Origin: Gimesia chilikensis | GTDB taxonomy: Bacteria; Planctomycetota; Planctomycetia; Planctomycetales; Planctomycetaceae | Assembly: GCF_007744075.1 (NCBI RefSeq) | Contig: NZ_CP036266.1 | Coordinates: forward strand, 4,573,748 to 4,637,747 | DNA length: 64,000 nucleotides | Reading direction: 5' to 3' | In this document: positions 36,952-48,276 of the stretch, in pieces | Position numbering within the stretch: position 1 is the first letter of the stretch | How the letters are laid out: each line of letters opens with the position of its first letter | Notes under the pieces: model-generated | Seen by the model: only the letters and a program-made list of their open reading frames with translations | Told to the model about the DNA's origin: nothing | The model's database searches: none | Translations under genes and position numbers: made by a program

Positions 36952-38145
36952 CTAGTTTTTTCGTCCCAATAACACAACAGATGTGTCGTCATGTCTTCCT
37001 GAACCGTCCGTAAATGCATTCGAATCCCGAAACAGATTCTCCAGTGCCGACTCCAGGCAGGTCGAGCGAGATTCCTGCAGAGACTGCATGATTCCCGGAA
37101 TGCCGAATTCGCCGAACTGCTCCTTCTCGCCGGGAAATGCTTCCGCCAGACCATCGGTAAAAATCAGCAGCCGACTGTCGGGCGGAATTTTTGACGTATG
37201 CACGTCGTAGTCCACATCCGGAACAATCCCCAGAGGCAACCCGCCATCATCCAGTGTGCCGAGCTCATAAATCTGGTTCGTTTCCAGCTCGTGCACAATT
37301 GGAATTGGCGCCCCTGCAGACGTCCATTGAAATTCATTCGTCCGGGAATTCAGAATCCCGTACAGCAGCGTGATAAAACCACCGTCATCATTCACGACCG
37401 CCTGTTCGCACAACCGGTTATTCACATCCTTCACGAACGCCGCGGTATCCAGGTAACGATTCGAACGGATCATCCCCACCAGCGTATGCATCGTCATGAT
37501 CGACATGCAGGCTTTCATCCCATGCCCCGAGGCGTCCCCCACCAGCAGCACCAGATTCTCATCGTCCAGCATGAAAACATCGTAATAGTCGCCACCAGCC
37601 AGCGTCACAGGCTGTCCGCCAAACACGCGGATCTGTGAAGATTCATACCGCGCAGTCACATCAAATCGATCCGGGGATAGAATGTTCGTCGGAATGATCG
37701 ATTCCTGCAGCTTCCGCACCGACTCCACCTCTTCACGCAGTCGCTCTGCCACAAACCGCTCGCGTTCCGCTTTGACCGAATTCACCACGCTTTCCAGCGT
37801 CACTTCCATCAGGAACATGAAATCACCGCCGTCATCGCGGATGATGTAAGCCCGCATCCCCGCCGTCAGAAAGCGGGCGAGATGAAACGTATCCTGGCCG
37901 GGGCACGCCCCCACGATCGGCGTATCCAGATGCTGTTGTCGCACCTGCTCAAAGTTGTCATACGCCGTCTGAGGATCAGGGCTCGTAATCGACATCAGAA
38001 TGATGTCCCATTCATCCTGTGTCGCTGCCTGCTGGAGGAACTCCTCCGGCGTCGCACAGATTCTGACTTCATTCTCACTCACCCCCAGATACATGGAGAT
38101 CAGCTCACACTCCTGGGGATTATCCCACCCTACAAGAATTCGCAT
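36952..38145 (-). CDS. SpoIIE-type PP2C phosphatase with degenerate receiver domain
   Basis: 397 residues. N-terminal receiver-like domain (1-120): the phospho-acceptor position in DIILMSITSP is Ser52 in place of Asp, and the conserved Lys is Arg103, so it cannot be phosphorylated in the usual way. A helical linker (120-155) leads to the SpoIIE/RsbU phosphatase with metal ligands in GGDYYD (184-189), GDASGHG (203-209), LLIFTDGL and RHDDTSVV. Such proteins dephosphorylate anti-sigma antagonists. No RsbV/RsbW partner is in the window. Confidence 0.88.
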   Translation of the reverse strand: MRILVGWDNPQECELISMYLGVSENEVRICATPEEFLQQAATQDEWDIILMSITSPDPQTAYDNFEQVRQQHLDTPIVGACPGQDTFHLARFLTAGMRAYIIRDDGGDFMFLMEVTLESVVNSVKAERERFVAERLREEVESVRKLQESIIPTNILSPDRFDVTARYESSQIRVFGGQPVTLAGGDYYDVFMLDDENLVLLVGDASGHGMKACMSIMTMHTLVGMIRSNRYLDTAAFVKDVNNRLCEQAVVNDDGGFITLLYGILNSRTNEFQWTSAGAPIPIVHELETNQIYELGTLDDGGLPLGIVPDVDYDVHTSKIPPDSRLLIFTDGLAEAFPGEKEQFGEFGIPGIMQSLQESRSTCLESALENLFRDSNAFTDGSGRHDDTSVVLLGRKN

Positions 38146-38695
38146 GACTGGCCCGCCTTCACTATTTCGAATTCGTATTCTGATTCATAATTTATTAACA
38201 CGGCCATCATAACTGCTTCACACATTTTTCGCGAATAAAATTTGCATAAACTCTTCCCCTGAAAACACATCCTTCATTTCAAACAGCTGACAGAACCACA
38301 GTATGAACAGGTTTGAACTTCCCCGTTTGCACGCCTGAATTCACTGCTCAGACTGACCTTGATCCGCACTTCCCGAACCATATTCTTGTGCAATTGTGCT
38401 TCGCGCGCGAGGCGGATGATGCGTGCACCGGAACACCGCGCACAAGTCACTCACATTCACCTGAATCGTCGTCGATTTTTCCCGATCTTCACCGGAACAA
38501 AATGAACCACTGCGATCTGTGCCCCGCAATTTCAAATCAACTCGCAGCACTTTCAGAGCAATTGAAAACGATCTCGTCCACATCTCATCACCCCCTCCCC
38601 TGAAATCAGAGCACAATCCCCCTTGACCCCTGCGCGCCCTTCCACAAGATGAGCAACACTGACAGACAGAACAATTAACTCCCATTTCAGTCAAA
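38146..38695. other. Gene-poor stretch before the repeat block
   Basis: About 550 bp with no ORF of coding character on either strand. It contains the PP2C promoter (minus) in its left part. No known RNA or structure was recognised; the repeat copies described separately follow it. Confidence 0.35.
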
Positions 38696-38723
38696 GTAGG
38701 GGCGGCCCCATGTGTCCGCCCGC
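38696..38723. repeat. Intergenic G/C-rich repeat, copy 1
   Basis: 28 nt starting GTAGGGGCGG and ending CCGCCCGC; it is itself an imperfect palindrome (GGGCGG / CCGCCC). A second inverted repeat directly adjoins: GCCTGGCG (38722-38729) / CGCCAGGC (38753-38760). The related copy lies 96 bp downstream. Confidence 0.65.
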
Positions 38724-38791
38724 CTGGCGAGAAACGATTCCAGCTGCTGTTACGCCAGGCACGGGACAACCTGATAAATGGGAATTCAGGC

Positions 38792-38819
38792 GTAGGGGCG
38801 CCCCTGTGTGGTCGCCCGC
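38792..38819. repeat. Intergenic G/C-rich repeat, copy 2
   Basis: 28 nt starting GTAGGGGCGC and ending GTCGCCCGC; same length and ends as copy 1, with changes in the middle that keep the GGGCG / CGCCC dyad. Such short dispersed palindromes resemble REP-like elements. Confidence 0.65.
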
Positions 38820-38873
38820 AAGTGTGACCTGCGCTTCGCCAGCTAATGGCACACATCCTGATTATTCCTCTCA

Positions 38874-38894
38874 ATTCAACATTCAGCATTCAAC
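38874..38894. repeat. Three tandem heptamers
   Basis: ATTCAAC, ATTCAGC, ATTCAAC in direct tandem, 47 nt before the next ATG. Too short to assign a role. Confidence 0.6.
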
Positions 38895-38941
38895 AAACGG
38901 AATGAACTCATAAGCCTCACCACACAGAAAGGAACAAAATC

Positions 38942-39406
38942 ATGCACCAGGAATCCCCACAATCCACCACCACACCCTCACCCCGCAGATATCTCACGCA
39001 GGACGAACAGACCGTCATCGTCCGACTCATCAAGAAAATGATCGGACTGGGCCGGTTCACCTCCGAAATCAAAACCGCCATCTCCGCCGAATACGGTCTC
39101 AGCCGCCATTCCGTCACGCGCTACGTGAATCGCGCCCGCCGCGAAATGCGGGAATTCCTCGAACAGGATCTGGACCAGCACCGCGCCGACTCCTATTTCT
39201 TCTACCGCTCCATCATCGAACATCCCGACGCCTCCAATCACGAACGCATCCGCGCCCGCGAACGGATCGATAAAATCATGGGCCTCGAAATCCCCAGCAA
39301 ATATCAATTGAACCAGGACTTCAATAAATCCATCGAGGAGATTGAAAACATGTCGGATGAAGAGCTCGACACCTACTACAACAAGCTCAAGAAAAAATAC
39401 AGTTGA
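38942..39406 (+). CDS. Helix-turn-helix protein, terminase small-subunit-like
   Basis: 154 residues, soluble and highly charged. A central HTH (about 48-68: AISAEYGLSRHSVTRYVNRA) is followed by a helical region with RIRARERIDKIMGLEIPSK. This R-A-R-E-R-x-D-K-I-x-G-L pattern recalls phage terminase small subunits and related orphan DNA-binding proteins. AAAGGA precedes ATG 38942 at about 9 nt. No large subunit or other phage gene is near. A transcription factor is the alternative. Confidence 0.6.
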   Translation: MHQESPQSTTTPSPRRYLTQDEQTVIVRLIKKMIGLGRFTSEIKTAISAEYGLSRHSVTRYVNRARREMREFLEQDLDQHRADSYFFYRSIIEHPDASNHERIRARERIDKIMGLEIPSKYQLNQDFNKSIEEIENMSDEELDTYYNKLKKKYS

Positions 39407-39639
39407 ACCGCGCATACTACTCAAAGGCACCACTCAAACGAGCTGCACCTTCCGCACCGGTGCTCACACTGAGTGAACCGGAAGCACGGGAATGCGGTCA
39501 CCGGTTTACTTTTGCCCCCATTCCTGTCATCGTGTCTCCCAACACAACGTGATTCTCGCGCAGGAAACGACGAACCGCATCGGAAGTATCAAACGGAAAA
39601 TTGCCTGACACCCGATCGGGCAACTACACAGGGAAGCAA

Positions 39640-40968
39640 ATGGCCGAAACTGAAAATTCAAAGCTGGGAATGTTCTCGACCCTTTCCATCGGCATTGGAG
39701 GCATGGTGGGCGGAGGAATTTTTGCCGTTACCGGACTCACCATCGAGATCACACGGGGTGCCGCTCCCGTCGCCTTCCTGATCTCGGGCATCGTCGCCCT
39801 GCTCACCAGCTATTCGTATCTCAAATTAACATTGCGGTTTCCCGGCGAGGGCGGAACCGTTGAGTATCTCAACCGCGCCTTCGGCAGTGGTATCCTGACC
39901 GGTGCCGCCAACATACTGCTGTTGATGTGTTACATCGTGCTGGTTGCTATCTACGCCTATGCCTTTGGCAGCTATGGTGCCAGCGTGTTCCCCGCCGATC
40001 AGAATAACTTCTGGCAACATACACTGGTCAGTGGTGTCATCATCGGCTTATGCCTTCTCAATATCGTCAGCACCGAACTGGTGATCCGTTCGGAGAACTT
40101 CTTTAACGGCGTCAAAATGGTCCTGCTGGCGATATTCGTCGTGGCCGGTCTGCTGACACCCATGGACTGGACGCGGCTCGGTCCGGAAAACTATGTCTCC
40201 CCCGTCGGCCTCATTGCCGGAGCCATGCTCATTTTCCTGAACTATGAAGGCTTCGAATTAATCGCCAATGCTTCCAATGACGTGGCCAACCCGAAGAAAA
40301 CCCTACCTGTAGCCTACCTCGGTGGAATCTTTGTGGTGATGGTGATCTATGTATTGATCGTGGGAGTCGTGGTTGGACACATGAGTTTCGCCGAAGTCGG
40401 AAAAGTGAGCGATCGCGCGCTATCGGTGGCGGCAACCCGCATTGCAGGCACCCCCGGCTTCATCGCAATTTTGATTGCAGCACTTCTGGCCACCAGCTCT
40501 GCCATCAACGCGACCTTCTACGGCACAGGCCGCCTAACGTATATCATTGCCAAGACAGGCGAACTGCCAACAGAGCTCGAACGTTCGATTCGCGGCCAGC
40601 ACCTGGAAGGTACTCTGATCTCAGCTTTCCTCGCATTACTCGTAGCGAACTTTGTCCCCCTGGAAGCGATCGCCACGATGGGCAGTGCCGGGTTCCTCTT
40701 GATCTTTCTCGCCGTCAACCTCGCCAATGTCCGACTGGCAAAACAGACAAACAGCCACGTCTGGCTCTCTGGTTTAGCGGCACTCAGCACAGCGGTGGCA
40801 CTGATTGTTTTGTGCATCAAGGTTGACGAAAACCCGGCCACCCGCAACCACCTCTGGATCCTGGTTGGAATGATCGTCGCTTCGCTACTCATCGAATTCT
40901 ATTACCGTAGTATCACGGGACGCAAGATTCACCTGATCCGACACCATAAACATCATCACAGCCAGTGA
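39640..40968 (+). CDS. APC-family amino acid permease
   Basis: 442 residues with about twelve transmembrane helices. Opening FSTLSIGIGGMVGGGIFAVTG is the APC superfamily TM1 signature with the unwound G-x-G region; NYEGFELIANASNDVANPKKTLP is the conserved TM6-7 block. Substrate is not predictable. ATG 39640 has GGGAAG upstream; a TTG at 39601 would add 13 residues. The extreme C-terminus is His-rich (RHHKHHHSQ). Confidence 0.88.
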   Translation: MAETENSKLGMFSTLSIGIGGMVGGGIFAVTGLTIEITRGAAPVAFLISGIVALLTSYSYLKLTLRFPGEGGTVEYLNRAFGSGILTGAANILLLMCYIVLVAIYAYAFGSYGASVFPADQNNFWQHTLVSGVIIGLCLLNIVSTELVIRSENFFNGVKMVLLAIFVVAGLLTPMDWTRLGPENYVSPVGLIAGAMLIFLNYEGFELIANASNDVANPKKTLPVAYLGGIFVVMVIYVLIVGVVVGHMSFAEVGKVSDRALSVAATRIAGTPGFIAILIAALLATSSAINATFYGTGRLTYIIAKTGELPTELERSIRGQHLEGTLISAFLALLVANFVPLEAIATMGSAGFLLIFLAVNLANVRLAKQTNSHVWLSGLAALSTAVALIVLCIKVDENPATRNHLWILVGMIVASLLIEFYYRSITGRKIHLIRHHKHHHSQ

Positions 40969-41211
40969 GTATTGTATGGTTTCACGAGTGATCTTTAGAA
41001 CTTTTACCAGGCAAGCATCAATACACGCCGATACAACACCCTCGCCCTTGTTTATAAATCACTGACAGCAGAAAAAACAATTTTGCTACAGGGCATCAGC
41101 CCCGAATGAAACAACATGGGTGTTGAGCGTGCGAATTAAAATAACACGAATTGTCCAGCCTTCATCCTCTGACGAACAGGGGAGTAACGCAGTGAAACAG
41201 GCATCTTTACG

Positions 41212-41271
41212 GAGTTTTTACTTTACATTCACCTCGCTGCTCTATAATGGAAAGAGCAGCGGTCAGGCACT
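41212..41271 (+). promoter_or_regulatory. Promoter with conserved 19-nt box, sulfatase copy A
   Basis: GAGTTTTTACTTTACATTC (41212-41230), 12 nt, TATAAT (41243-41248), then GTCAGGCACT (41262-41271). The identical box, spacing and -10 and the same later decamer occur before sulfatase copy B. TTTACA within the box is 15 nt from the -10 and is the likeliest -35. Most of 40969-41211 shows nothing recognisable. Confidence 0.75.
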
Positions 41272-41348
41272 GAGATCTTCCCTCTACCTGTTAAACAACA
41301 CGGTCCGTGAAACGGCACATTAGTTCGATACGCAGCGAGAGTAACTCA

Positions 41349-41489
41349 ATGTGCAACTTCGATCTCTATTTCACGCTGGTTCAGCGATTGTCTGCCTTCA
41401 CAACTGACAAGTGGCTCCTTCAGACCACCACCGCTCTCTGTTTCTCCCTGATCTATCAGACAGTCGTCGGCTGTCACTTTTCTCAATGA
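41349..41489 (+). CDS. Leader ORF upstream of sulfatase A
   Basis: 46-codon ORF; ATG 41349 has GAGAG (41337-41341) upstream. It ends 14 nt before the sulfatase ATG. Its last part reads ...LCFSLIYQTVVGCHFSQ. The codons TCC CTG, N6, and ACA...G are in the same reading frame as in the leader ORF of copy B. That shared frame and fixed distance to the hairpin argue for a real leader peptide, although the upstream parts of the two leaders are not alike. Confidence 0.45.
   Translation: MCNFDLYFTLVQRLSAFTTDKWLLQTTTALCFSLIYQTVVGCHFSQ
41459..41475 (+). promoter_or_regulatory. Hairpin before sulfatase A
   Basis: GACAG (41459-41463) / CTGTC (41471-41475), 7-nt loop, 28 nt before the sulfatase ATG and inside the leader ORF. 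CTCCCTGA (41444-41451) precedes it by 7 nt, exactly as in copy B. Confidence 0.5.
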
Positions 41490-41503
41490 ACAAGGATACT
41501 GCA

Positions 41504-43162
41504 ATGAGACTTCAAATGTGCCAGTTACGCTCCCTGATTCTGTCGGCGCTGGCAGTCACCATCAGTCTGGCGATCGCCGTCCCCGCACACGCGCGACAGA
41601 AAAAACCGAACATCCTGCTCATCGTCTCCGACGACACCGGCTACGGTGACCTGGGCCCCTACGGCGGTGGTGTCGGCCGCGGCATGCCCACCCCTAATAT
41701 CGACAAAATGGCCCGCGCAGGCATGACCTTCTTCTCCTTCTACGCGCAGCCCAGCTGTACCCCCGGTCGCGCCGCCATGCAGACCGGACGCATCCCCAAC
41801 CGCAGCGGGATGACCACCGTCTCCTTCCCCGGACAGGGGGGCGGACTCCCCAAAGAGGAATGGACGCTCGCCTCGATCCTCAAACAGGCCAACTACCGCA
41901 CGTACTTCACCGGAAAATGGCACCTGGGAGAAGCCGACCACGCTCTGCCCAATGCACACGGCTATGACGTGATGGAGCACTGCTTCCTCTACCACCTCAA
42001 CGCCTACACCTATGGTGATCCAGAGCGGTTCCCCGACATGGATTTCAAGCTGCGGCTGATGTTCAATCTCGTTACGAAAGGGTCCCTCTCAGGCAAAGCG
42101 GGAGAGGCGCCCAGGCAGGACTGGAAAGTCGTCGGTGAATACATCGACACGCCGGAAAAGGGATTCGTCGGCGTCCCCTATCTCGATCAGTACGTCGAAC
42201 AGTCGGGTCTGAAGTTTCTGGAAGACGCCGCCCAACATCCCGATCAGCCCTTTTTCATCAACGTCAACTTCATGAAAAACCACCAGCCCAACCTGCCGGC
42301 TCCCGAATTCAAACACAAATCCATCTCCAAAACCAGATACGCCGATTCCATCGTCGAACTCGACACACGCATCGGCAACCTCATGAACAAACTCAAAGAA
42401 CTCGAACTGGAGCAGGACACGCTGGTCTTCTTCACTACCGACAACGGCGCCTGGCAGGACGTCTATCCTGACGCCGGCTACACACCGTTTCGCGGTACCA
42501 AAGGCACCGTCCGCGAAGGGGGCAGCCGGGTCCCCGCCATCGCGGTCTGGCCGGGTAAGATCAAAGACGGCGTCCGCAATCACGATATCCTCGGCGGCCT
42601 GGATCTCATGGCTACTTTCGCTTCCCTCGCCGGTCTGGAACTTCCGGAAAAAGATCGCGCAGGCGAACCGATTTGCTTCGACAGCTACGACATGTCACCC
42701 GCCCTGTTTGGCACAGGCAAGTCGAAACGGAATTCCTGGTTTTACTTCACGGAAAATGAACTCGCCCCCGGTGCCGCTCGTGTCGGCAATTATAAAGCCG
42801 TCTTCAATCTCCGGGGGGATGGCGGCCAGGCGACAGGCGGCCAGGCCGTCGATACCAACCTCGGCTGGAAAGGACCGGAGAAGTATGTCGCCACCGTTCC
42901 ACAGGTCTTTGACCTGCTGCAGGACCCGCAGGAACGCTATGACATTTTCATGAATAACTACACGGAACGTACCTGGACCCTGGTGACCTTCAATGCCGTC
43001 ATCCGGAACCTGCTGCAGAGTTACGTCGACTATCCGCCACGCAAAATGCAGAGCAAAATCTATCACGGACCGATCACCCTGACGGATTTCCACAAATTTA
43101 AATTTATCAGGGATGCCCTCAAAGAGGAAGGCATGAAATTTTCGCTCCCTTTCGGCAAATGA
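41504..43162 (+). CDS. Secreted arylsulfatase (type I, formylglycine), copy A
   Basis: 552 residues, signal peptide 1-30 (ending PAHA). Sulfatase core: PNILLIVSDDTGYGDLGPYGG with metal-binding Asp pair, and the maturation motif SCTPGRAAMQTG with Cys85 converted to formylglycine in the family, then GKWHLGE. It hydrolyses sulfate esters outside the cytoplasm. ATG 41504 is chosen: AAGGA 8 nt upstream, and the length then equals copy B exactly (552), with aligned signal peptides. The frame is open further up to 41411. Substrate not predictable; likely sulfated polysaccharide or its fragments. Confidence 0.9.
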   Translation: MRLQMCQLRSLILSALAVTISLAIAVPAHARQKKPNILLIVSDDTGYGDLGPYGGGVGRGMPTPNIDKMARAGMTFFSFYAQPSCTPGRAAMQTGRIPNRSGMTTVSFPGQGGGLPKEEWTLASILKQANYRTYFTGKWHLGEADHALPNAHGYDVMEHCFLYHLNAYTYGDPERFPDMDFKLRLMFNLVTKGSLSGKAGEAPRQDWKVVGEYIDTPEKGFVGVPYLDQYVEQSGLKFLEDAAQHPDQPFFINVNFMKNHQPNLPAPEFKHKSISKTRYADSIVELDTRIGNLMNKLKELELEQDTLVFFTTDNGAWQDVYPDAGYTPFRGTKGTVREGGSRVPAIAVWPGKIKDGVRNHDILGGLDLMATFASLAGLELPEKDRAGEPICFDSYDMSPALFGTGKSKRNSWFYFTENELAPGAARVGNYKAVFNLRGDGGQATGGQAVDTNLGWKGPEKYVATVPQVFDLLQDPQERYDIFMNNYTERTWTLVTFNAVIRNLLQSYVDYPPRKMQSKIYHGPITLTDFHKFKFIRDALKEEGMKFSLPFGK

Positions 43163-43305
43163 TTACCTGGCTTGACTGATAATTGCGCGGACCGCTGGAT
43201 CTCACCTGTTGGCTCATCTGATAACACTTGTCAGATCCAAACCAGCCAATTCGAATCAATAAACTCAAGTATGTTCCAGTCGTACCTGCCCCCCCATTTT
43301 TCACA

Positions 43306-43369
43306 GAGTTTTTACTTTACATTCTTGCCACCCGATTATAATGAGGTTAGTGTACCCAAGTCAGGCACT
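43306..43369 (+). promoter_or_regulatory. Promoter with conserved 19-nt box, sulfatase copy B
   Basis: Same 19-nt box (43306-43324), 12-nt spacing, TATAAT (43337-43342), then GTCAGGCACT (43360-43369). The intervening nucleotides differ from copy A, so the box and -10 stand out as conserved. Confidence 0.75.
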
Positions 43370-43404
43370 AACCTAAATCGATCTCATCATTGAGGAATCC
43401 TTCT

Positions 43405-43611
43405 ATGCAGCGGGAATCATTGCCAGTTCCCCTATATGCTGAAGCCTGGTTCCGAAAATCCAACTACACTCTTCGCCCTGTCTGGCATCCTGAGTACATT
43501 CTGCTTAACTGCTATCGGCTTCGTTCTACCACTCAACTTAGACAGGGAAATAACGTCTGCTCCCTGACACTGTCGACAGCCCCCGGGCTGTTATCTACTC
43601 TCAACTGCTAA
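43405..43611 (+). CDS. Leader ORF upstream of sulfatase B
   Basis: 68-codon ORF; ATG 43405 has GAGGA (43392-43396) at 8 nt. It ends 10 nt before the sulfatase B ATG, and AAGGT of the sulfatase ribosome site overlaps its stop. The tail ...VCSLTLSTAPGLLSTLNC shares TCC CTG ... ACA ... G in the same frame as the leader of copy A. Confidence 0.5.
   Translation: MQRESLPVPLYAEAWFRKSNYTLRPVWHPEYILLNCYRLRSTTQLRQGNNVCSLTLSTAPGLLSTLNC
43576..43591 (+). promoter_or_regulatory. Hairpin before sulfatase B
   Basis: ACAGCC (43576-43581) / GGCTGT (43586-43591) with a 4-nt loop, 30 nt before the sulfatase ATG. Preceded at 7 nt by CTCCCTGA (43560-43567) and one G, as in copy A. Confidence 0.5.
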
Positions 43612-43621
43612 GGTCTCCACC

Positions 43622-45280
43622 ATGAAACATCTTGCTCTTCCATTTCGCTCATTCCTTCTGCCCTTCCTGGCAGTCATCACCATCCTGGTGATCGCCCTCC
43701 CGGCACAGGCCCAGCAGAAAAAACCCAATATTCTGTTCATCGTCTCCGACGACACCGGTTACGGTGACCTGGGTCCCTATGGAGGTGGGGTCGGTCGTGG
43801 CATGCCCACTCCCAACATCGACCGCATGGCCCAGGAAGGGATGACTTTCTTTTCCTTTTACGCACAACCCAGTTGCACCCCCGGTCGGGCCGCAATGCAG
43901 ACCGGCCGCATCCCCAACCGCAGCGGGATGACAACCGTCGCCTTCCAGGGACAGGGGGGTGGACTCCCCAAGGCTGAATGGACACTCGCCTCGGTCCTCA
44001 AACAGGCCGGCTACCAGACCTACTTCACGGGTAAATGGCACTTGGGAGAATCTGATTATGCCCTTCCCAATGCACATGGTTACGATGAGATGGAGCATTG
44101 CTTCCTCTATCACTGCAATGCCTACACTTACGGTGACCCGAACTGGTTCCCTGATATGAAACCAGATCTGCGGGCCATGTTCGACCGCGTTACTAAAGGG
44201 TCGCTGTCAGGCAAAGCAGGGGAAGCTCCCAAACAGGACTGGAAAGTCAATGGACAGTATGTCGACACACCTGAAAAAGGAGTCGTAGGCATCCCGTTCA
44301 TGGACAAGTACGTCGAAAAGTCAGGATTGAAGTTTCTGGAACAGGCAGCCCAAAATCCGGATCAGCCTTTCTTTATCAATATCAATTTCATGAAGGTCCA
44401 CCAGCCAAACTTGCCAGCACCGGAATTCAAACACAAATCACTCTCCAAATCCAAGTACGCTGATTCGGTTGTCGAACTCGACACGCGGATCGGTAACATC
44501 ATGGACAAACTCCGTGAACTCGGCCTCGATAAAAATACCCTCGTCTTTTACACAACTGACAACGGCGCCTGGCAGGACGTCTATCCCGATGCCGGCTACA
44601 CACCATTTCGAGGAACGAAAGGCACAGTCCGCGAAGGGGGCAACCGCGTCCCTGCTATCGCAATCTGGCCCGGAAAAATCAAAGCCGGCGTCCGTAACCA
44701 CGACATTCTCGGCGGCCTGGATCTGATGGCCACTTTCGCCTCTGTTGCCGGAATTAAACTGCCCGAAAATGATCGCGAAGGCAAACCCATCTACTTCGAC
44801 AGTCTCGACATGACCCCCATCCTGACCGGAACGGGCGAATGCCCCCGGGAGTCCTGGTTCTACTTCACCGAAAATGAACTGACTCCTGGAGCAGCCCGCG
44901 TCAACAATTACAAAGCCGTTTTCAACCTTCGGGGAGATGACGGATCAACCACGGGAGGTCTGGCCGTCGATACCAACCTGGGCTGGAAAGGCCCCAACAA
45001 ATATGTCGCAACCGTTCCCCAGATCTTCGATCTCTGGCAGGATCCTCAGGAACGCTACGATATCTTCATGAATAACTACACTGAACGGACCTGGACACTG
45101 GTGACATTTAACGCCGAAATCAGCAAACTGATGAAAACTTACGTCAAGTATCCACCGCGGAAACTGCAAAGTGAAGTCTATACCGGACCACTCACGCTGA
45201 CCGAATACCAGCGGTTCAAATTTGTCAGGGACGCTTTGAAAAACGAAGGCATCAGTCTGCCGCTGCCCACTGGCAACTGA
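43622..45280 (+). CDS. Secreted arylsulfatase (type I, formylglycine), copy B
   Basis: 552 residues, signal peptide 1-30 (ALPAQA). Same architecture as copy A with long identical stretches (SDDTGYGDLGPYGGGVGRG, FYAQPSCTPGRAAMQTG, Cys85). The pair is a tandem duplication that has diverged. AAGGT precedes the ATG by 7-8 nt. A strong terminator follows the stop. FGly-generating enzyme is required and is not in the window. Confidence 0.92.
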   Translation: MKHLALPFRSFLLPFLAVITILVIALPAQAQQKKPNILFIVSDDTGYGDLGPYGGGVGRGMPTPNIDRMAQEGMTFFSFYAQPSCTPGRAAMQTGRIPNRSGMTTVAFQGQGGGLPKAEWTLASVLKQAGYQTYFTGKWHLGESDYALPNAHGYDEMEHCFLYHCNAYTYGDPNWFPDMKPDLRAMFDRVTKGSLSGKAGEAPKQDWKVNGQYVDTPEKGVVGIPFMDKYVEKSGLKFLEQAAQNPDQPFFININFMKVHQPNLPAPEFKHKSLSKSKYADSVVELDTRIGNIMDKLRELGLDKNTLVFYTTDNGAWQDVYPDAGYTPFRGTKGTVREGGNRVPAIAIWPGKIKAGVRNHDILGGLDLMATFASVAGIKLPENDREGKPIYFDSLDMTPILTGTGECPRESWFYFTENELTPGAARVNNYKAVFNLRGDDGSTTGGLAVDTNLGWKGPNKYVATVPQIFDLWQDPQERYDIFMNNYTERTWTLVTFNAEISKLMKTYVKYPPRKLQSEVYTGPLTLTEYQRFKFVRDALKNEGISLPLPTGN

Positions 45281-45303
45281 GTGCGTGTGCCGACTGAAAA
45301 CCG

Positions 45304-45338
45304 TGCAGACCGCCTGTACTTCAGGCGGTCTGCATTTT
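45304..45338 (+). terminator. Intrinsic terminator after sulfatase B
   Basis: Perfect 13-bp arms TGCAGACCGCCTG (45304-45316) / CAGGCGGTCTGCA (45322-45334), 5-nt loop, then TTTT. It separates the sulfatase from the phosphatase gene. Confidence 0.88.
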
Positions 45339-45381
45339 CCATCGAAGTTTGGTCCCCTTACCCGCCAGAGAGAGTGAACAC

Positions 45382-46365
45382 ATGAGATTTCAGTCACATC
45401 GTCGATTACTGACCGTCGTTCTTTTTCTGACTTGCTGTGCATATCAGTTACACGCTGCTGACCCGCTCCCCTCCTGGAACGAATCTGCCGCCAAACAGAA
45501 CATCATCCAGTTCGTCGAAAAGGTGACCTCCAGGGATTCTCCCGATTACGTCCCTCCGGAACTCCGCATCGCCACCTTCGACAACGATGGCACCCTCTGG
45601 ACCGAAAAACCGCAGTACTTCCAGGTTTTCTTTGCCATCGATCGGGTCAAAGCCCTCGCCCCCCAGCATCCGGAATGGAAAACGGAGGAACCCTTCGCTT
45701 CAGTTCTCAGGGGTGATTACAAAACCGCCTTCGCCGGGGGAGAAGCAGCCGTCCTGAAAATGGTTATTGCCACACACAGCGGCATGACCACCACCGAATT
45801 TGAAAAGATCGTCAACGAGTGGAGCAAAACCGCCCGGCATCCGAAAACCGGACGTCTCTTCACCCAGATGGTTTATCAACCCATGCTCGAACTGCTGGCC
45901 TACATGCGTGCCAACGGCTTCAAAACCTTCATCGTCTCGGGAGGCGGAATCGAATTCATGCGGCCGTGGACCGAACGAGTTTACGGCATCCCCCCCCAGC
46001 AGGTGGTCGGCAGCAGTGTCAAAACGAAATTTGAAATGCGTGAAGATGGTCCCGTGCTGATTCGTCTGCCGGAAATCAATTTCATTGACGACAAAGCCGG
46101 CAAACCGGTTGGCATCAACTCGCATATCGGCCTGCGTCCCATCGCCGCCTTCGGGAACTCCGATGGTGACATCCAGATGCTCGAATGGGCCACCGGTACA
46201 TCCGGTGCCCGCTTCGCACTGCTCGTGCATCACACCGATGCCAAACGTGAATACGCCTACAATGTCGGTGCCGTACAGGCTCTGAAAGATGCCAGTGAAA
46301 AAGGCTGGACCGTTGTGAATATGAAGGACGACTGGAAAGTCATCTACCCGCCCCTCAAGAAATGA
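45382..46365 (+). CDS. Secreted HAD-family phosphatase
   Basis: 327 residues from ATG 45382 (GAGAG upstream). Signal peptide 1-25. HAD motif I FDNDGTLW with Asp67 and Asp69, motif II IVSGGG, motif IV FGNSDGD. The layout is the SerB/phosphoserine-type subfamily with a helical cap. Being extracytoplasmic it probably takes phosphate from an external ester. It follows two sulfatases but after a terminator, so cotranscription is partial at best. Confidence 0.85.
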   Translation: MRFQSHRRLLTVVLFLTCCAYQLHAADPLPSWNESAAKQNIIQFVEKVTSRDSPDYVPPELRIATFDNDGTLWTEKPQYFQVFFAIDRVKALAPQHPEWKTEEPFASVLRGDYKTAFAGGEAAVLKMVIATHSGMTTTEFEKIVNEWSKTARHPKTGRLFTQMVYQPMLELLAYMRANGFKTFIVSGGGIEFMRPWTERVYGIPPQQVVGSSVKTKFEMREDGPVLIRLPEINFIDDKAGKPVGINSHIGLRPIAAFGNSDGDIQMLEWATGTSGARFALLVHHTDAKREYAYNVGAVQALKDASEKGWTVVNMKDDWKVIYPPLKK

Positions 46366-46377
46366 ACCCCGTGCAAC

Positions 46378-46413
46378 CGTCGGCCCATACTGCTGATACA
46401 CATTGGGCCGACG
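46378..46413. terminator. Hairpin between convergent genes, no U tract
   Basis: Perfect 10-bp arms CGTCGGCCCA (46378-46387) / TGGGCCGACG (46404-46413) with a 16-nt loop between two facing gene ends. There is no T run on either strand, so it may act as a 3'-end stabiliser more than as an intrinsic terminator. Confidence 0.5.
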
Positions 46414-46441
46414 CTTGATTCATCGCATCAGCTTAATCGAG

Positions 46442-47353
46442 TCAGGCACTCTCGACCGCCGGTTGCTGTGCCTGCTCTTCCTCGCGCACCGTTTCCGGCA
46501 GCATTAACACGGCCCCGAGAAAAAAACAGATCGCCCCCTGCAACGTAAAGGCAACCGCGACAGTCTCCATCCATTCTATGGACTGACCGGGAAGCGAGAT
46601 CGCAAAACAGGCGGAGACCATAAAGCCTACGCAGCCCAGCAGGTTGATCACCACAATCCACCACGAAAGATTCTCCGACCGCCAGCCCCAGTAACGATGG
46701 CAGATCTCAATATAGGCCAGGTAACCGGAGGCCAGAAACAGCACCGAGCCCGCAAAGTTAGGAACCCACACCAGAAGATCGGTCTGAATCCACGTGAGCC
46801 CGGGCCACAGCGCATCGAAGGTATTGAAGTTAAACAGGATCGTCCCCACAAACTGCAAGGCACAACTTAACCAGCCCGCCTTCCACGGCTTCCACCCCAA
46901 TAGACGGTATCGTTTCCCGGAATGATCGGGCTCGTCCGGCAGTGGCCCGGCATTCGCGGCCTGGTAGAGTTGCAGATAGGCGGCAGTCGTAAAGGGAAGC
47001 GAACCGGCAAAGTAAATCGCATTCACTTGAGTTGAACTCAATGCCAGCGCGTTCGCCAGCTCGGGTGCAAGTAACAGCACACTCGCCGTCGCAAACAGCA
47101 ACGACCCGAACGCAAACAGACTTCCGATCCACCAGTTTAACTCGCCCGGCATCCACAGACAGCGGATCAACAGCTGACCGACAGCTTCCGCCAGACCGAT
47201 TTCACGGGCAACCAGAGCCTTGCGGTGCTTGCGTGACAGCCATTCCCACAGCGTGCCGTCGGCGTGACGAAACAGACGGCGCGTAATAAACGGCCCCGCC
47301 CCTTCCTCTTCTAAACACTCCCACCCTTCAGTTTTCTGACGCGATCCAGACAT
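46442..47353 (-). CDS. Polytopic membrane protein, YrhK-like repeats
   Basis: 303 residues, about seven to eight hydrophobic helices. Repeated W-(I/V)-x-x-x-x-G-S-x-L-F motifs (WWIGSLFAFGSLLF, WVPNFAGSVLFLASGYLAYIE) recall the YrhK domain of unknown function, a tentative match. The first 60 residues are polar. No catalytic motif seen. Convergent with the HAD phosphatase gene, 76 bp apart; divergent from the next gene. Confidence 0.55.
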   Translation of the reverse strand: MSGSRQKTEGWECLEEEGAGPFITRRLFRHADGTLWEWLSRKHRKALVAREIGLAEAVGQLLIRCLWMPGELNWWIGSLFAFGSLLFATASVLLLAPELANALALSSTQVNAIYFAGSLPFTTAAYLQLYQAANAGPLPDEPDHSGKRYRLLGWKPWKAGWLSCALQFVGTILFNFNTFDALWPGLTWIQTDLLVWVPNFAGSVLFLASGYLAYIEICHRYWGWRSENLSWWIVVINLLGCVGFMVSACFAISLPGQSIEWMETVAVAFTLQGAICFFLGAVLMLPETVREEEQAQQPAVESA

Positions 47354-47433
47354 ACCCGCAGTCTACTGCAACGCATCCCAAAATACGAATGCAGACCGGA
47401 TGATGATTTTCAGATGAGACAGTGATAATTTTC

Positions 47434-47462
47434 TTGACTCCCTGAAAACTGCAATCAACAAT
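47434..47462 (+). promoter_or_regulatory. Possible promoter of the 47557 gene
   Basis: TTGACT (47434-47439), 17 nt, AACAAT (47457-47462). The -35 is good; the -10 matches four of six. Confidence 0.35.
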
Positions 47463-47556
47463 GGCGAAATACCCATCGGAACATAAGTCGAGTCATGTAC
47501 AATGTTCGTTTTCCTGTCTTTCCTGAACGTCACTTGAATGTAGAGCTGGAATCCCC

Positions 47557-48276
47557 ATGAATGATGAACTCACGCCTGAAGAACTCGTATCCTCCGAATC
47601 TGCCACCGATGTCATCGGATCTGAGAATGACCCGACGGTCATGGTCTGGTCGACCAGTTCGGGTGACAGCACCCTGCTGCACGTAATGCAGATCGACCCC
47701 ACGGGCATTGCCTGGCTGCTCGATATCAAAAAGCCGAAAGTCCTCGAAGAACTCGTCGGCCGCATCAACGCACAGCCAGACGAGGCAACCGCGATCATCG
47801 CTGCAGAATCCAAGGGGACCTTCCTGCCGCGCGCAGAACTGTCCCGCGTCACCTACACGGAAGGTCTGAAGCAGCTCACCATCATCGACCAGGCCGGCAA
47901 GAAACAGAAAATTACCGAGGGCAACGCAGGCGAACACAGACAGATTTTCGATGCGGTCCGTCATCATCTGGGGGGCACCGCCGGCGAGGAAGAAGCCGAT
48001 GCCTGGTCGGTCATGCAGGGTCCCCTGCTCGGCCTGGTCCTCACGGCGGCCATCGGCGGGTTCATGATCTTCCTCTCCACCGAAGCCGATCCGAGTCGCG
48101 AATTCTCGGGACGCCGCAGTGGTATGAAAAAGCTGATCAACTGGCTGGGCTACACCATTGGCCCCACCTGGATGTCAGTGATTGTCGGCGGGATCTTCCT
48201 GGTCATCTTCGCTTCCATGATGCACTCACTCGTCAAACGCCCCCTGCGGGAATTCCTGGCCTTCAGACCGGTCTGA
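47557..48276 (+). CDS. Membrane protein of unknown function
   Basis: 239 residues: an N-terminal soluble domain (1-150) and two transmembrane helices (about 160-178 and 206-228). No recognised domain. The soluble part is mixed alpha/beta with a DQAGKKQKI turn and no metal or catalytic motif. It is followed 11 bp later by a secreted protein gene and probably forms a two-gene operon with it. Confidence 0.6.
   Translation: MNDELTPEELVSSESATDVIGSENDPTVMVWSTSSGDSTLLHVMQIDPTGIAWLLDIKKPKVLEELVGRINAQPDEATAIIAAESKGTFLPRAELSRVTYTEGLKQLTIIDQAGKKQKITEGNAGEHRQIFDAVRHHLGGTAGEEEADAWSVMQGPLLGLVLTAAIGGFMIFLSTEADPSREFSGRRSGMKKLINWLGYTIGPTWMSVIVGGIFLVIFASMMHSLVKRPLREFLAFRPV

Follow-up and report, generated by a model that had tools for sequence, protein, structure and literature searches.

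The closest described relatives of the promoters reported here are Pho box promoters of the PhoB, PhoP and SphR type, in which tandem 11-bp units lie about 10 nt before a -10 element of the form TAN3T. Published Pho boxes are described as 11-nt repeat units (PMC4415409), and the PhoB boxes of E. coli are placed 10 bp before a TAN3T/A -10 element (PMC1906773). The latter source, in its available text, gives three or more of these repeats for SphR, and some cyanobacterial SphR half-sites read CTTTAC (PMC1906773). An excerpt of a study of Synechocystis describes a TTAA core as needed for binding (PMC11126600).

Among the literature matches listed, which comprised titles and the starts of abstracts with most subscription journals outside their scope, there was no description of a planctomycete Pho box. 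To our knowledge the control of planctomycete sulfatases is mostly unstudied. Rhodopirellula baltica has 110 sulfatases, and 11 of its sulfatase genes are regulated under stress (PMC2754498). The sulfatases studied here resemble those of R. baltica in being part of a planctomycete sulfatase expansion, and the available portion of that source describes neither phosphate control nor the promoter layout reported below (PMC2754498).

The window, the whole stretch of 64,000 nucleotides that was analysed, lies in the 8.29-Mb single-contig genome of Gimesia chilikensis (G000; other G labels denote family genomes and L labels denote loci). It contains two tandem sulfatase genes, A (41504..43162) and B (43622..45280), on the plus strand, as are the HAD gene and the promoter and leader elements of this locus given below. 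Each encodes a protein of 552 residues with a sulfatase domain (PF00884, E = 4.7e-46 for A and 1.1e-48 for B), and the two proteins are 79% identical. Both contain CTPGR, a motif of the C-x-P-x-R type, which together with the PF00884 domain identifies them as type I sulfatases; we take the motif to have its formylglycine meaning. A HAD-family hydrolase (PF12710, 45382..46365) follows, it is probably secreted, as its N-terminus appears signal-like by eye. This gene is a conserved neighbour of the sulfatase family, a homologue being present in 57 of 94 sulfatase loci, a set in which a few loci overlap or repeat and some end before the expected place of the HAD gene. A strong hairpin at 45305-45333, GCAGACCGCCTG-TACTT-CAGGCGGTCTGC followed by ATTTT, lies in the gap from sulfatase B to the HAD gene and is likely to be a terminator or a read-through control.

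This is a very widespread family of sulfatases. Of 413 confirmed relatives, the best 80 (L047-L126) are 68-79% identical and come from several phyla according to their labels; this identity across phyla and the frequent HAD adjacency point to either strong constraint or wide gene transfer. Within the genus, the sulfatase was found in six of 17 genomes at the threshold used. Two tandem copies are present in G000 and G010, copy A occurs alone with the HAD gene directly after it in G001, G005 and G009, and the G006 sulfatase is a fragment at a contig end with the promoter missing, so that promoter counts use the remaining seven copies. Copy B of G010 (L046, C1 4637463-4638938) has a 1-nt insertion in a run of G that shifts the frame, which points to either a recent pseudogene or an error in the sequence. 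Of the two copies, B is the more alike in G000 and G010 (59 of 552 third positions differ, against 145 of 550 in copy A), which hints at transfer or conversion at the locus.

The promoter elements noticed in the first-pass annotation were all present. A 19-nt box, GAGTTTTTACTTTACATTC, occurs at 41212-41230 and 43306-43324, TATAAT follows 12 nt later in both copies (41243..41248 and 43337..43342), and GTCAGGCACT is found near the expected transcript 5' ends (41262-41271 and 43360-43369). With up to three mismatches the box occurs at only these two places in the 8.29-Mb genome, none being expected in the window. The TATAAT of A is unchanged in all five copies of A in the genus, and that of B is unchanged in the G010 copy. 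GTCAGGCACT starts 13 or 17 nt past the -10 element, its position is kept in all seven genus copies (exactly in six), and its letters are identical in five of five A copies with one change in the G010 copy of B. As a genome-wide motif the 10-mer was rejected, because its 29 sites compare with 32 for the reversed pattern, a frequency expected by chance. Neither sulfatase promoter was picked up by a sigma-70 scan that looked for TTGACA at 16-18 nt, and a genome survey of -35 elements on control upstreams gave only a weak and uninformative signal.

The box is part of a longer repeat. Operator A (41206..41232) reads TTTAC-N6-TTTAC-N6-TTCAC-N10-TATAAT and matches three copies of TTHAY at 15 of 15 positions. 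Operator B (43300..43326) reads TTCAC-N6-TTTAC-N6-TTCTT-N10-TATAAT, with a degenerate third half-site and a match at 14 of 15 positions. Repeats with a period of 11 suggest an operator of the OmpR/PhoP type. The three half-sites of A, and the two plus a degenerate third of B, are tandem direct repeats with the period of a Pho box, and their distance to the -10 element is also that of a Pho box, being N10 at both sulfatases and at pstS and N9 at phoX. The number of repeats recalls SphR promoters, which have three or more (PMC1906773, in the part available). The first-pass annotation could name no described counterpart of the layout; the spacing matches that of Pho boxes and is common to the pstS and phoX promoters of the genus. 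It differs from known Pho box promoters in its half-site cores, which are mostly TTTAC or TTCAC and not TTAAY, in having a sulfatase as target, and in the conserved GTCAGGCACT after the -10 element.

The reading as an 11-bp TT(T/C)AC repeat was formed on the sulfatase promoters themselves, a point that counts against it; it preceded the inspection of pstS and was then used as a prediction there. At pstS, a TTHAY triple with a -10 element of TATGGT or TATGTT at N10 was found in 16 of 16 genus genomes examined, counting one promoter per genome; nothing matched in G006, and G003 has a further match under the cut-off that was not counted. At phoX, the triple with a -10 element at N9 was found in 14 of 16 genus genomes, the exceptions being G006, which reaches 12/15, and G007, which is cut by the contig end. 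The TTHAY pair was absent upstream of four of four PhoD homologues. GTCAGGCACT, allowing up to one mismatch, was absent from the 80 nt after the operator in all 30 pstS and phoX promoters.

Control upstreams came from 112 other genes, the two sulfatases being excluded, and this set also served for leader ORFs and stems. TTHAY pairs occur in one of these upstreams on the plus strand and two on the minus strand, and none of them has a triple. A scan of both strands over 2.464 Mb (30% of the genome), in which the pst region was included on purpose and the phoX region was not, gave four triples of period 11. Three of these have a TAnnnT element (at least 4/6 to TATAAT) at N9-N10, and the three sites are sulfatase A, pstS and phoX. 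Control periods of 9, 10, 12 and 13 and reversed patterns gave no site at N10, the reversed period-10 pattern gave one at N9, and the reversed period-11 pattern gave three triples with no -10 element at gaps of 5 to 17. A looser cut (14/15, N9-N11) over 2.064 Mb without the phoX stretch gave six matches against one for the reversed control, namely sulfatases A and B, pstS and three without an evident phosphate link.

A half-site model was built from the pooled half-sites and -10 elements of the 16 pstS and 14 phoX promoters only, with a gap of 9-10. Among 4,917,594 positions, the two training sites of G000 rank 1 and 2, sulfatase A ranks 3 and sulfatase B ranks 7, and no control upstream scores as high as either sulfatase. 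Lower-ranked matches (L215, L198, L234, L258, L202 and L259) lie within or ahead of genes which, judged by eye, have no evident phosphate link. With a 30-column pstS/phoX matrix, spacers included, sulfatase A falls to rank 346 and B to rank 8987; we explain this by the training on two orthologous promoter sets, which lets the spacer letters weigh heavily. TTAAY is the commonest half-site at pstS and phoX, and T at position 3 is found in none of their 90 half-sites, yet the middle sulfatase half-site is TTTAC in seven of seven copies. Taking together the ranks of model and matrix, the third position, the TTAA core and the CTTTAC half-sites of SphR, the argument from layout is strong and the argument from individual bases is moderate.

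The promoter is conserved within the genus. The box core with TATAAT 12 nt later is present in all seven sulfatase copies that have promoter sequence. In 170 family genomes, box, N12 and TATAAT together (up to three mismatches) gave eight matches, of which seven precede this sulfatase in five genomes of the genus and the eighth, with three mismatches in G010, precedes an unrelated gene. Near-matches to the box elsewhere (L134, L144-L149) are in or near unrelated genes, as judged by eye from translations. That the box is a general mark of sulfatase genes, a possibility raised at first, is not supported; within these genomes it marks this locus. Between the A copies of G000 and G010 the upstream part is changed at 74 of 120 sites, whereas the box is changed at 2/19, the spacer at 1/12 and the -10 element at none of 6. 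Around the transcript start, 4/13 sites differ between the -10 element and GTCAGGCACT, and 0/10 within it. Further downstream the changes are 27/77 before the leader ORF, 44/110 in it, 9/17 in the hairpin, 8/16 from hairpin to Shine-Dalgarno sequence and 1/12 from there to the ATG, compared with 145/550 sulfatase third positions. From these counts there is constraint on the promoter, the transcript start and the ribosome site, but none on the ORF or the hairpin. For copy B of the same two genomes the box is changed at 1/19, the spacer at 3/12, the -10 element at 0/6, GTCAGGCACT at 1/10 and the leader ORF at 18/170, the last being near the third-position level of 59/552 and so as expected without constraint. 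The proposal that the shared elements are held by selection is supported for the promoter part, where box and -10 element are kept within and between species, and is not supported for the leader ORF and hairpin.

The leader elements themselves are present as first noted. There is a leader ORF of 46 codons before A (41349..41489) and of 68 codons before B (43405..43611), and each copy has CTCCCTGA, 7 nt and a GACAG hairpin with a 7-bp stem (41459..41475 and 43575..43592). The hairpin-to-ATG gap is 28 nt in A as reported, in B it is 29 or 30 nt depending on the stem end chosen. Seven of the 112 control genes have an ATG-started ORF that is 46 codons or longer and ends at -30..+4 (14 when GTG and TTG starts are admitted), and in 16 a stem of 7 or more base pairs lies close to the ATG. 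The ORFs and stems are not clearly beyond chance; at these frequencies such ORFs are not rare, yet to meet one before each of the two sulfatases is not trivial. Between G000 and G005, changes in leader ORF A are spread evenly over codon positions (5, 9 and 7), with five synonymous and 11 non-synonymous codons, and sulfatase changes are concentrated on third positions (8, 10 and 74). In this comparison of codon positions no coding constraint on the leader peptide was seen. In G001, G005 and G009 the leader ORFs differ at 3/110 sites per pair against 70-92 of 550 sulfatase third positions, which may be a hint of constraint within this group, and G000A has diverged from all three.

The hairpin of A has a 7-bp stem in G000, G001, G005 and G009 and is absent in G010A. 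At B, the longest uninterrupted stem in G010 is 5 bp, and a 1-nt indel there shifts the frame near the end of the leader ORF. CTCCCTGA is exact in three of seven genus copies (G000A, G000B and G010B) and is not kept in G010A. In the B copies it forms the 3' arm of another stem (CAGGGA...TCCCTG), the 5' arm region of which falls in a stretch of 51 nt that copy A of G000, G001, G005 and G009 lacks. No consensus fold was found over the seven-copy alignment of the ATG-proximal stretch, leader folding was no better than that of shuffles (z of 0.33 and -1.05), no terminator or antiterminator with a U-tract was conserved among the genus copies, and Rfam gave no match at E up to 1 over positions 38000-48000 of the window.

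We consider it probable that the box common to A and B forms the core of a Pho box and that both sulfatases are under control of the PhoB type. The main competitor, which we regard as unlikely, is that the box binds some other OmpR/PhoB-class regulator, or another kind of activator, whose signal is not phosphate. The preference for TTTAC and TTCAC over TTAAY and the weak match to the full-column matrix would fit such a regulator, as would the restriction of the exact box to this locus and the three further near-full-length regulators that a PhoB-model search finds in the genome. Against it, the pooled pstS/phoX half-site model ranks the two sulfatase sites among the first 7 of 4.9 million positions, and the distance to the -10 element equals that at pstS.

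The first-pass annotation suggested attenuation or a coupling of translation, for which the leader ORF and hairpin would be responsible; we judge this very improbable. An open frame of at least 46 codons ends near the sulfatase ATG in seven of seven copies, the one in G010B beginning outside the 250 nt first scanned, compared with 7/112 other genes; its stop overlaps the ATG as ATGA in copy A of G001, G005, G009 and G010, and the main indels of A and B total 51 and 54 nt, both multiples of three. One base pair of the hairpin is also changed on both sides between G000A and G001, G005 and G009, which could lend weak support to a local stem in that group only. These points are opposed by the comparison of G000A with G010A, in which 40% of the leader ORF and 53% of the hairpin are changed compared with 26% of the third positions of the sulfatase, and by the lack of codon-position bias, of a consensus fold and of a kept U-tract; together with the loss of hairpin and CTCCCTGA in G010A and folding at the level of shuffles, they leave the suggestion unsupported. 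The locus resembles leader-peptide attenuators in having a short ORF and a hairpin before the gene, but as its peptide and terminator are unconserved it is not a member of that class, and the leader ORFs are probably incidental. That recent duplication alone, without selection, explains the shared elements is scarcely credible. A and B are indeed tandem paralogues, but the genes differ at 236 of 552 third positions, the proteins are 79% identical, and the leaders and remaining upstream regions have diverged while box and -10 element are identical.

For the Pho box reading a candidate regulatory system is present. In G000 a PnpS/PhoR-like kinase precedes pstS, and pstC, pstA, pstB and a PhoB-like regulator follow it. 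The kinase scores above its cut-off (405.4 against 400 bits) and the regulator below the PhoB cut-off (246.9 against 296.2 bits), and we counted a PhoR-PhoB system as present with a sub-threshold regulator. When phosphate is short, the repeats would be bound by a PhoB-type regulator, for which the best candidate is this one (G000:C1:650406-651074, beside pstSCAB and the PhoR-like kinase). The three TTHAY half-sites, 11 bp apart, end 10 nt before the sigma-70-type TATAAT, and the bound regulator would take the place of a good -35 element in recruiting RNA polymerase. Recruitment at the shared box would turn on both sulfatases at the same time as pstS and phoX. Most of the leader ORF and hairpin sequence would have been drifting since an old tandem duplication. 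From the DNA we infer that PhoB binds and that low phosphate induces the genes, as well as whatever part the enzymes may play in acquiring phosphate.

Sulfatases and phosphoester hydrolases overlap. A choline sulfatase, BetC, is described in the accessible part of one source as acting on 'PC' (PMC10132767). This overlap and the HAD neighbour make a role in phosphorus supply possible. More speculatively, and with less confidence than not, we suggest that the conserved sulfatase-HAD cassette of many phyla may serve phosphorus supply in these planctomycetes, its 'sulfatases' being phosphate-starvation enzymes (phosphoester hydrolases, or openers of phosphate-hiding sulfated polymers), with GTCAGGCACT a second control element at the transcript start.

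Outside the genus, the exact box was not found in six class-level orthologues, and five of these six loci are without a TTHAY pair. Upstream scans covered 76 of the 80 genome_contigs relatives (L058, L098, L106 and L108, with no or short upstream DNA, being excluded), and one of the 76 has a TTHAY pair, L068 from a Planctomyces MAG, with a 13/15 triple and TATGAT at N11. The sixth class-level locus, L042, shows the same site as L068, and the two are probably one contig. No TTHAC pairs were found upstream of the 76 relatives. Boxes of the E. coli type were also considered and rejected, there being no excess of them upstream of the 76. The near-absence of pairs in these relatives indicates that control by phosphate is no general feature of this sulfatase family. 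If the proposal is correct, one sulfatase pair would join the phosphate regulon, and a usable Pho box model for the genus would follow from pstS and phoX.
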